Of a DNA stretch of 64,000 nt, positions 56,012 to 61,934 are shown piece after piece. Numbering within the stretch: the first letter of the stretch is position 1; each line of letters opens with the position of its first letter. The position numbers and the translations under genes are program-made. The notes beneath the pieces were generated by a model. That model saw only the letters and a list, made by a program, of their open reading frames with translations, did not search any database and had not been told where the DNA came from. The stretch is from Pseudomonas putida (GTDB lineage: Bacteria; Pseudomonadota; Gammaproteobacteria; Pseudomonadales; Pseudomonadaceae), in contig NZ_JANHLD010000001.1 of assembly GCF_028682455.1 (NCBI RefSeq), positions 620,001 to 684,000 on the forward strand, read 5' to 3'.

Positions 56012-57196
56012 TCAGGGGTAGAACAGCACCAGGCCGAACACTGCAAACACGACCAGGTGCATGAGGCCCTGGATCGGTGAGGTCTTCTGGCTGTTGAAGC
56101 TGAGCATGGTCAGCACAACGGTGATGATGAAGAGCAGGATCTCGGTATTGGAAATCCCCATCACTACCGGCTTGTTGGTGAGCATGCCAATCACCAGCAC
56201 CGCCGGCACCGTGAGGCCTACGGTGGAAACGAACGCGCCCAGGCACAGGTTGATCGCCCGCTGCATTTCGTTGTTGATCGCCGCCTTCACTGCGGTAATG
56301 GACTCGGGGGTGAAGACAATGATCGCGATCAATACACCGCCCACCGCAGTGGGCGCGCCGACGGCCTCGATGCCGTAGTCGGTTACCACGGCCAGGTAAT
56401 GCGCCAGCAACACAATGGGCAGTATCAAGCCGAGCAGCACCAGGGAACGTATCAGGATCTCTTTGCTGTCGAGCGAGGTGTGCTCGTCGGTACGCGGCGC
56501 ATCGCTGTGCGATTGCGGCTGGGCAATGCTCATGTGTCCGGCAGGTGGCTGCATGAAGAAGCGCCGGTGGCTGCGCATTTGCATCCACAGGAACGCTGCA
56601 TACAGCGTCAGGGTCAGTACCGAGATGCCAACTGCCTGGGTAACGCTGAACTCGCCGGCGCTGGAGGTGTAGTTGGGCAGTATCAAGGCAATCCCGGTGA
56701 GCAGCACGATCATCGAGATATAGGCATTGGCGCCCTGGATATTGAACGCCTGCTCGCCGTTGCGCACAGCGCCGGCGATCAGGCAGATACCAATGACCAG
56801 GTTCATGATGATCATCATCACGGCGAAGATCGAATCCCGGCCGATGCTCGGGAAATCCCCCGGCCCGAGCAGGACCGAGGCGATCAGGATCACTTCGATC
56901 GATACGATCGATAACGTCAGGATCAGGGTGCCGTAGGGTTCGCCAAGCTGCTGCGCCAGGTGATCGGCTTCGTGTACCACACCGAATGACGCCATCAGGA
57001 TGGTGAAGAACAGCAGCAGGAACACCCAGGTCGAGGTCAACGAGTTCAGGGTGCTGCCCAGCAGGTCTGCGCCCATCAGCATGAACAGGCCGACCACCAG
57101 CCAGGCGCCGGCCAGCCGCATCCAGGTCGAAAGCGCAATGAGTGGGCGTTTGATCGCCTCGTCGAACAGGGTGTCGTGACGGGGTGCTGTGGTCAT
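56012..57196 (-). CDS. CaCA-family cation/proton antiporter (ChaA-like)
   Basis: 394 residues from ATG 57194-57196 (MTTAPRHDTLFDEAIKRPLIALSTWM), preceded by GGGAGG. About eleven helices. The two Na/Ca-exchanger repeats are visible: AQQLGEPYGTLILTLSIVSIEVILIASVLLG (about 83-113) and IAIIVFTPESITAVKAAINNEMQRAINLCLGAFVSTVGLTVPAVLVIG (about 290-337), each with acidic ion-site residues. The linker QPPAGHMSIAQPQSHSDAPRTDEH is histidine-rich and cytoplasmic. Its ATG lies four bases after the stop of the NuoA-like gene, so the two are one operon. Confidence 0.87.
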   Translation of the reverse strand: MTTAPRHDTLFDEAIKRPLIALSTWMRLAGAWLVVGLFMLMGADLLGSTLNSLTSTWVFLLLFFTILMASFGVVHEADHLAQQLGEPYGTLILTLSIVSIEVILIASVLLGPGDFPSIGRDSIFAVMMIIMNLVIGICLIAGAVRNGEQAFNIQGANAYISMIVLLTGIALILPNYTSSAGEFSVTQAVGISVLTLTLYAAFLWMQMRSHRRFFMQPPAGHMSIAQPQSHSDAPRTDEHTSLDSKEILIRSLVLLGLILPIVLLAHYLAVVTDYGIEAVGAPTAVGGVLIAIIVFTPESITAVKAAINNEMQRAINLCLGAFVSTVGLTVPAVLVIGMLTNKPVVMGISNTEILLFIITVVLTMLSFNSQKTSPIQGLMHLVVFAVFGLVLFYP

Positions 57197-57200
57197 GGCG

Positions 57201-57638
57201 TTAGCCTCCCTGCGAGCAGGATGGATGTTTGGCCTCATGGGTTTTGCCCCGGGGCTTTTTTGCGACGCCGCCATTGAGGGCGCCCATTGCGCCTTCATAG
57301 ACCAGCCCGAGCAGCAGGATGCCGGCGAAGATAGTCGCCCCGATGAATCCGGCCCAGCCTGTTTCCCTCACTGAGACGGCATAGGCAAATAGAAACAGCG
57401 CCTCGGCCTCGAAGATCACGAACAAGATCGCAACCAGGTGGAATTTGGCCGATAGCCGCAGGCGGGCATTGCCCACGGGCAGCATGCCCGATTCGAAGGG
57501 CTCGTTCTTGCTCCGTCCCCAGGCCTTGCCGCCCAGGAAGCTGGAAATACCCAGCATCAGCAGGCAAAGCGTGACAACGCCCAGCAGGAAGACGCCGAAC
57601 GCCCAGTTGTGCGAAATGGTGGCTGTTGTCTCTGTCAT
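57201..57638 (-). CDS. Orphan NuoA-like (NADH dehydrogenase subunit A) paralogue
   Basis: 145 residues, start ATG 57636-57638 ([22 protein letters not shown]). Three membrane helices (about 14-33, 64-86, 95-114). The loop [63 protein letters not shown] is a clear NuoA/ND3 signature, with the FD-x-E motif changed to FEAE. The usual C-terminal GALDW is replaced by GALNGG and a basic tail. There are no other nuo genes nearby; it forms an operon with the antiporter. It is therefore not the complex I subunit in its normal setting. Either it serves the antiporter or it is a spare NuoA. Confidence 0.85.
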
Positions 57639-57937
57639 TGTTCAGTCCCCGGTATGAATGGATCAACGTGACGTTGGTCATTGAAAGCTTCAGGTGGGGG
57701 CTGGCTAACCACAGGCGCACGGGTCTGACGGGCAGAATCGAAAACGCTGCGCGGGCGAGAAGTACAGGGGAAGGGTAGGGAGTGCGGATACATCGGTCAC
57801 GGCTTGCTTCCTTGGAAGTCCAGGGCCGTCCCCGATCAGTATTCGAGCCTGAGGTCGTCCTCAGGTGAGCGTGTCATGTAGCGAGCGGGACTGTACTGAT
57901 TTTTCCCGCCGATGCCAATGCTTGTGTCCGTCGGCGT
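57639..57937. other. 299-base leader region of the NuoA-like/antiporter operon
   Basis: Between ppx and the NuoA-like gene, both on the minus strand. It has one perfect hairpin, CCTGAGG-TCGT-CCTCAGG (57849-57866), just after the ppx gene, without a T-run. No open frame on either strand is convincing. The length would suit a regulated leader, but I could not match a known riboswitch. Confidence 0.5.
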
Positions 57938-61855: not shown

Positions 61856-61922
61856 AGGAGCGGGCTTGCCCCGCGATAGCGATCTATCTGACACATCGCA
61901 TCGCGGGGCAAGCCAGCTCCGA
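61856..61922. repeat. REP pair before the TonB-receptor stop
   Basis: GAGCGGGCTTGCCCCGCG and inverted CGCGGGGCAAGCCAGCTCC about 29 bases apart. A truncated copy (GAGCGGGCTTGCC) lies at about 61712-61724. Confidence 0.88.
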
Positions 61923-61934
61923 CCATCGTCCCTT

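Follow-up and report, generated by a model that had tools for sequence, protein, structure and literature searches.

A guanidine-II riboswitch precedes an orphan NuoA altered at the complex I switch residue in Pseudomonas, suggesting an inducible alternative subunit

Six Pseudomonas genomes carry, apart from the nuo operon, a second NuoA (hereafter NuoA') that is headed in every case by a guanidine-II riboswitch and that differs from canonical NuoA at exactly the residue described as the switch point of complex I. The presence of the same gate change in every riboswitch-linked copy suggests that in the presence of guanidine the cell swaps one component of its respiratory pump, and a guanidine-sensing RNA in front of a NuoA changed at this very residue links two separate fields. 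While the NuoA family itself is known, the riboswitch-linked control and the lineage-specific gate change appear, to judge from the sequences compared here, to be new; we found no paper on a guanidine-riboswitch-linked NuoA, and an earlier mention in the 2017 guanidine-II validation paper is possible. All evidence presented below is computational and the genome sample is non-exhaustive.

The orphan nuoA gene and its operon

The window, that is the whole stretch of 64,000 nucleotides of Pseudomonas putida DNA that was analysed, belongs to a genome of 6.28 Mb in eight contigs and holds the following features.

56012-57196, minus strand: CaCA-superfamily cation/H+ antiporter of 394 aa, second gene of the operon (PF01699, 89 bits against a cut-off of 24.9)
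57201-57638, minus strand: NuoA paralogue (NuoA') of 145 aa (PF00507, 92.6 bits against a cut-off of 23.3)
57408-57410, minus strand: codon of E77 (GAG), equivalent to D79 of E. coli NuoA; E in 6/6 NuoA', D in 60/60 canonical NuoAs
57426-57428, minus strand: codon of I71, equivalent to M73 of E. coli NuoA; I in 6/6 NuoA', M in 60/60 canonical NuoAs
57705-57800, minus strand: putative short upstream open reading frame with GTG start, 31 codons and a stop, directly behind the riboswitch
57807-57813, minus strand: Shine-Dalgarno sequence AAGGAAG with its complement CTTCC ahead (expression platform), in 6/6 leaders, with one base changed in Pseudomonas sp. BGr12
57822-57866, minus strand: guanidine-II (mini-ykkC) aptamer whose two hairpins have the loops ACGA and ACGG (Rfam RF01068 at 37.7 bits against a gathering score of 32)
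57890-57918, minus strand: putative sigma-70-like promoter, TTGGCA (57918-57913), 17-nt spacer and TACAGT (57895-57890), recognised by eye in the leader alignment

The original prediction had described a NuoA/ND3-type subunit standing without any other complex I gene and separated by four bases from a CaCA antiporter, and this description holds. In a profile search the protein passes the curated PF00507 (NuoA/ND3) cut-off by a wide margin, the signature motif on which the identification had been based is present, and E. coli NuoA (3rko_A) is matched with an E value of 1.1e-41. The open reading frames at 52-62 kb, inspected by eye, include no other apparent nuo gene, and nuoB does not stand next to NuoA'. 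The antiporter frame starts at 57196 and NuoA' ends at 57201. An AlphaFold2 model of NuoA' places helices at residues 2-39, 58-91 and 94-121, with low confidence (mean pLDDT 58.8). Elsewhere in the same genome there is exactly one other NuoA, on contig C5, where it heads a full nuo operon (gene names assigned by eye from the open reading frames).

Recurrence of the riboswitch and NuoA'

When the contigs of 84,980 species were scanned for the window protein and the best 80 of 436 relatives were kept, NuoAs with FE instead of FD at the switch position (FE-type) were found in P. putida 31303 (88%), P. vranovensis (90%) and Pseudomonas sp. BGr12 (71%), and in the remaining 77 of these best 80 the switch position is Asp and nuoB adjoins the gene. 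Among 398 sampled Pseudomonas genomes, a second NuoA at E <= 1e-20 is present in six (the window's own genome, G089, G271, G013, G082 and G224), and four hold an FE-type NuoA', namely the own genome (G000), G013, G271 and G089, the last of which is taken as 31303. The total is thus six NuoA', all from Pseudomonas: those of the window, P. putida 31303, P. vranovensis, G271, BGr12 and G013. No further FE-type NuoA was recognised in 369 genomes of the class, with the second NuoAs of 13 genomes left out, and the NuoA matches on plasmids, 34 records, are all below 60% identity and include no near relative.

The other two second NuoAs were rejected as further cases. In G082 the second NuoA is a fragment of canonical type (FDIEAL) where the contig ends, and SrbA is present at its locus as it is at several canonical loci; the one in G224 (P. 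tumuqii) is a broken copy just before the canonical nuoA, decayed and with internal stops (G224:C12, about 56219-56557).

All six NuoA' genes are preceded by an Rfam RF01068 match above the gathering score. By a simple rule of our own, a guanidine-II-like hairpin pair lies at most 400 nt upstream of 6/6 NuoA' as against 0/60 canonical genes, and in the same 66 rows nuoB comes next in 60/60 canonical NuoAs as against 0/6 NuoA'; it also comes next in 28 of 29 further loci of the class. Searched with Rfam, 20 whole canonical loci, including the canonical loci of the six species, contain no guanidine-II riboswitch. Each of the six genomes has two kinds of gene, one canonical nuoA (FD, M73) and one riboswitch-linked NuoA (FE, I73).

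The leader and its expression platform

The riboswitch upstream of NuoA' had escaped the original prediction. It is the sole Rfam match above gathering in the 64-kb window, no second guanidine-II was found beside it in the own genome, and its aptamer ends 183 nt before the NuoA' start codon on the same strand. The putative promoter ends 23 nt before the aptamer; three close relatives have an identical -35 box and TAAAGT or TACAGT as the -10 box, with a spacer of 18 in 31303.

In five of the six leaders the riboswitch stands directly before a short open reading frame, so that control of NuoA' must run via coupling or readthrough, and the short GTG frame may encode a leader peptide or serve as a coupling device. 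The equivalent GTG opens short frames of 31-54 codons in four relatives, overlapping the NuoA' start in 31303 and G013, while in BGr12 the NuoA' start is itself a GTG, served by the riboswitch Shine-Dalgarno sequence and located 20 nt behind the aptamer. Three of the five short frames end in a similar peptide, FCPSxPCACG.

In the predicted fold of the unliganded window leader, CUUC pairs with GAAG and the bases of P2 pair with the GTG region. The unliganded leaders of the window, 31303, P. vranovensis and G271 are all predicted to leave P2 open, with most of the Shine-Dalgarno sequence paired with CTTCC (z of -2.5 to -3.8); the BGr12 leader has a similar but weaker predicted fold (z -1.39), and the predicted fold of the G013 leader is no better than those of shuffled sequences (z -0.95). 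For E. coli gdx, whose riboswitch likewise has ACGA and ACGG loops, guanidinium has been reported to expose the Shine-Dalgarno sequence and to switch translation on (PMC13064478), although the unliganded state of the gdx riboswitch is drawn in that paper differently from the folds predicted here. The RNA class and the two ACGR hairpins at NuoA' are the same as in the known guanidine-II regulon of gdx/SMR exporters and guanidine carboxylases, and release of the Shine-Dalgarno sequence by P2, as in that regulon, is plausible. What sets the present locus apart is that the regulon consists of an exporter or a degrading enzyme, whereas here the riboswitch precedes a respiratory subunit.

Residues changed in NuoA'

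Residues were compared in 66 rows (60 canonical NuoAs, three of them not from Pseudomonas, and six NuoA') together with E. coli NuoA. Exactly two residues are fixed in all six NuoA' and absent from the 60 canonical proteins, M73I and D79E (E. coli numbers). Asp is also found at position 79 in 32/32 further NuoA loci (29 of the class and three from Pseudomonas) and in all 122 readable match rows that are not riboswitch-linked, duplicates included and six unreadable rows left out. The original prediction had pointed to two differences from canonical NuoA, FEAEAL in place of FDxEAL and the replacement of the terminal GALDW by GALNG and a basic tail. Both are present in the window protein and the change of D to E recurs in 6/6, but the loss of GALDW, seen in five of the six, is not general, and since G013 retains this motif its loss is ruled out as a mark of NuoA'.

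D79 was described in 2026 as a 'carboxylate switch point' or kinetic gate in the E-channel of E. coli complex I, where it gates proton transfer from NuoH E157 to NuoK E36 (PMC13324432). According to the same source, D79N leaves about 20% of activity with assembly unharmed; D79E does not occur in its text.

NuoA' belongs to the NuoA/ND3 family (PF00507; 3rko_A). Of 64 near-invariant canonical columns (>=97%), 44 are kept in all six NuoA', including every such column of the TM1-2 loop (motif RSKNxPFESG), a loop that has been reported to meet the peripheral arm (PMC8357420), and positions E81, E51 and K46 are conserved. NuoA' departs from the canonical family in lying outside a nuo operon, in its riboswitch linkage, in D79E and M73I and, in five of six copies, in the lost GALDW.

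A 'YE' in TM3 (position 117) was rejected as a guanidine mark, since the P. mendocina group has it in its canonical NuoA and so do many loci of the class. E117 together with Gly102 occurs in 6/6 NuoA' and in the canonical NuoAs of the P. mendocina group and its kin (L016, L034, L047, L123 and L126), and most other Pseudomonas NuoAs have E102 and L117, a paired charge shift along the TM3 helix.

Phylogeny and selection

In a tree of 75 of 88 NuoA proteins, from which rows shorter than 120 aa and L152 were left out, the six NuoA' form one clade (95/91). With the D/E site masked and nine more long rows left out, which brings the tree to 66 rows, the clade has a support of 90/83, below the star of the tool. 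Within the clade, the grouping of the four CaCA-linked copies and BGr12 is firm (100/98 and 100/96). The dN/dS of NuoA' is 0.09-0.17 in five of the six copies (G013 was left out), indicating purifying selection, and that of the CaCA gene is 0.07-0.16. The original prediction had proposed a tree against canonical NuoA and would have been refuted by a gene falling among canonical copies with no recurrent antiporter neighbour, or by a genome lacking the normal nuoA; what was found is a clade of its own, a normal nuoA heading its operon on contig C5 and an antiporter neighbour that recurs in part.

An inducible alternative subunit of complex I

We propose that NuoA' is a guanidine-induced alternative NuoA that enters complex I and retunes its proton gate under guanidinium stress, with the antiporter as an optional partner, and we give this reading an even chance of being correct. 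The sequences show the riboswitch linkage, the single clade, the purifying selection, the exact residue change and the presence of both NuoAs in each genome, and from these we infer guanidine control of the operon, incorporation of NuoA' in complex I, a physiological benefit and a role of the antiporter.

Guanidinium would bind the aptamer and restore P2, thereby freeing the Shine-Dalgarno/GTG region, and NuoA' would be translated, together with the CaCA antiporter where this is present. NuoA' would then replace canonical NuoA in complex I, bringing Glu for Asp79 and Ile for Met73, and the swap might keep the proton gate working, or render it less sensitive, with guanidinium present. Guanidinium, as a small planar cation, would be drawn in by the membrane potential and attracted to carboxylates, and the antiporter might extrude cations, possibly including guanidinium, in exchange for protons.

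A spare subunit swapped into complex I had been named in the original prediction as the plainer alternative to an antiporter partnership. The swap does fit better, given that the TM1-2 loop and 44 of the 64 near-invariant columns are kept throughout, but the spare is less plain than had been thought, because it is linked to a riboswitch and its proton-gate residue has changed in a lineage-specific way. The antiporter-partner reading stood in part: the gene pair is real, the protein is non-canonical and a CaCA gene adjoins it in four of the six genomes, but the element that recurs in all six is the riboswitch instead.

The exchange of complex I-type subunits according to conditions has a precedent in the alternative NDH-1 complexes of cyanobacteria with their inducible NdhD/NdhF isoforms. 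There, however, the pump and CO2-uptake modules are changed, whereas NuoA' is a subunit of the E-channel, altered at a gate residue and placed behind a riboswitch. Several points speak against the swap, among them that the loss of GALDW in five of six copies could impair the assembly of complex I, that D79E is a conservative change, and that NuoA' is rare (4/398 sampled Pseudomonas genomes). The short frame that separates riboswitch and NuoA' in five leaders, the poor predicted folds of the G013 and BGr12 leaders and the lower clade support after masking also count against it. If the swap is true, it would provide a natural working variant of the complex I gate and point to a target at which the action of guanidine can be tested, as well as, by analogy, that of biguanides and other drugs of the guanidine type.

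Two variants of the swap may be proposed, one of tolerance, in which the gate is kept working, and one in which the pump is slowed and less guanidinium is taken up. A further reading is that guanidine, which is a natural metabolite, poisons bacterial complex I at its E-channel carboxylates and that some Pseudomonas answer by a riboswitch-triggered exchange of NuoA, which would amount to target replacement and, if true, to a guanidine response distinct from export and degradation. We advance it tentatively, its chances falling somewhat short of even. The swap itself draws on reports that guanidine is toxic to bacteria (PMC12186494) and that biguanides inhibit mammalian complex I and contact its carboxylates, guanidinium being named as a chaotropic analogue (PMC7614227). 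Against this, biguanides and galegine have also been reported to act on complex IV instead (PMC9265089). In the literature searched we found no direct inhibition of bacterial complex I by guanidinium, the biguanide data being those of the mammalian enzyme only.

The second variant of the swap appears unlikely to us. Here NuoA' would enter complex I and slow or loosen proton pumping, thus lowering the membrane potential and with it the electrophoretic uptake of guanidinium. The reduced activity of D79N at unharmed assembly (PMC13324432) would agree with such an effect, as would the report that the membrane potential concentrates positively charged biguanides up to 1,000-fold in mitochondria (PMC7614227). 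However, the carboxylate is retained in D79E, and the strong purifying selection together with the conservation of E81, E51 and K46 suits an active enzyme.

The CaCA antiporter

The window antiporter has the Na_Ca_ex domain in common with the CaCA2/ChaA-type proteins (TIGR00846, E. coli ChaA, YfkE 4kjr and the vacuolar calcium ion transporter 4k1c) and matches 4k1c and 4kjr by sequence. Unlike these proteins, it scores below the curated cut-offs (189.8 against 317.45 for TIGR00846 and 177.8 against 505 for ChaA) and belongs to an operon with a guanidine riboswitch at its head. It is 62.6% identical to a 'calcium:proton antiporter' of Aminobacter.

A search for NuoA genes outside nuo operons and for their CaCA neighbours, as the original prediction had suggested, gave a divided result. 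The antiporter adjoins NuoA' in four of the six genomes (window, 31303, P. vranovensis and G271), but there is no CaCA gene within 5 kb of NuoA' in BGr12, and G013 has neither a CaCA gene near NuoA' nor a close copy in its genome. Since these two copies lack an adjoining antiporter, it is not partnership with a dedicated antiporter that recurs, and this was rejected as the main explanation; the constant unit is the riboswitch with NuoA', and the CaCA gene is not constant. In the four genomes that have both genes, the cassette occupies the same site, between a FAD-linked oxidase/D-2-hydroxyglutarate dehydrogenase-like gene and a ppx-like gene (named from their sequences), and in 31303 this site is interrupted by other DNA of up to about 3.7 kb. 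A short REP-like element lies at 61856-61923 of the window, and several repeats are found in the matching stretch of G271.

These observations bear directly on the proposal in which a free NuoA' gates the CaCA protein, the pair forming an exchanger for guanidinium (or Ca2+/K+) outside complex I. The four-base spacing and the presence of both genes together at one and the same chromosomal site in four genomes would be in keeping with it, and so would the finding that, among 249 Pseudomonas genomes, a close CaCA copy (E <= 1e-60) occurs only with the NuoA' cassette, in the own genome and in G089 (G271 lies outside the 249). The two genomes in which NuoA' does without the antiporter, as well as the loop for the peripheral arm that NuoA' retains, speak against it, and we consider it quite improbable.

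The nearest plasmid homologue of the window CaCA is the 62.6% match, on plasmid paAMD1 of Aminobacter niigataensis MD1 (L234, 9932-11116); the 21 kb around it contain no Rfam match and no annotated NuoA, and no Rfam riboswitch was found around the Aminobacter and Methylobacterium plasmid homologues.

Guanidine-II riboswitches elsewhere in the genus

The guanidine-II riboswitch is present in 377/398 Pseudomonas genomes. In two sets of loci the genes behind it were grouped by BLAST, and a profile search served as a check on one carboxylase, one SMR and the MFS-type gene. The first set, which is not random, being made up of the 30 best-scoring loci and the window's own, comprises 28 carboxylases, two SMR genes and the own NuoA'. 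The second, likewise not random, consists of 30 other loci in 25 genomes that had been picked because of a low score or a second NuoA, and comprises 19 SMR exporters, seven carboxylases, three NuoAs and one MFS-type gene. A gdx orthologue is found in all six NuoA' genomes (the own copy at C1:30574-30876), so that NuoA' would come in addition to export rather than take its place.

The company of this riboswitch also bears on the proposal that NuoA' works by itself as a small exporter or channel for guanidinium, Gdx-like and unrelated to complex I. It draws on the fact that most other guanidine-II riboswitches examined precede a carboxylase or an SMR exporter. However, gdx is already there in each of the six genomes, the Multi_Drug_Res (SMR) domain is absent from NuoA' and from the CaCA protein alike, their Pfam matches being PF00507 and PF01699 only, and a lone ND3 protein of three predicted helices, its complex I loop intact, would hardly be expected to act as a carrier, all of which makes this proposal very improbable. 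Least probable of all is an accident, in which a spare nuoA without any role of its own came to lie behind a riboswitch by chance, as the rare distribution of NuoA' and the commonness of the riboswitch in the genus would allow, given the low dN/dS, the retention in six species with and without CaCA and the fixation of D79E and M73I.

The gdx leaders of these genomes differ in their state. That of the own genome (L194, 5880-5990, on C1) holds the second guanidine-II hairpin only (GGGACGGCCC), with a REP-like palindrome in the expected place of the first, and an Rfam search of this leader relaxed to E 10 yields no riboswitch. The gdx leader of G271 has likewise been taken over by a REP-like palindrome, and the riboswitch is intact in the gdx leaders of P. 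vranovensis, 31303, BGr12 and G013.

A further locus, L188 (G059:C3:28595-30013), has two guanidine-II-like matches that narrowly miss the gathering score and lie about 1.4 kb from each other; the first precedes an MFS transporter gene resembling the Cmx/CmrA efflux pumps, below the curated cut-off.
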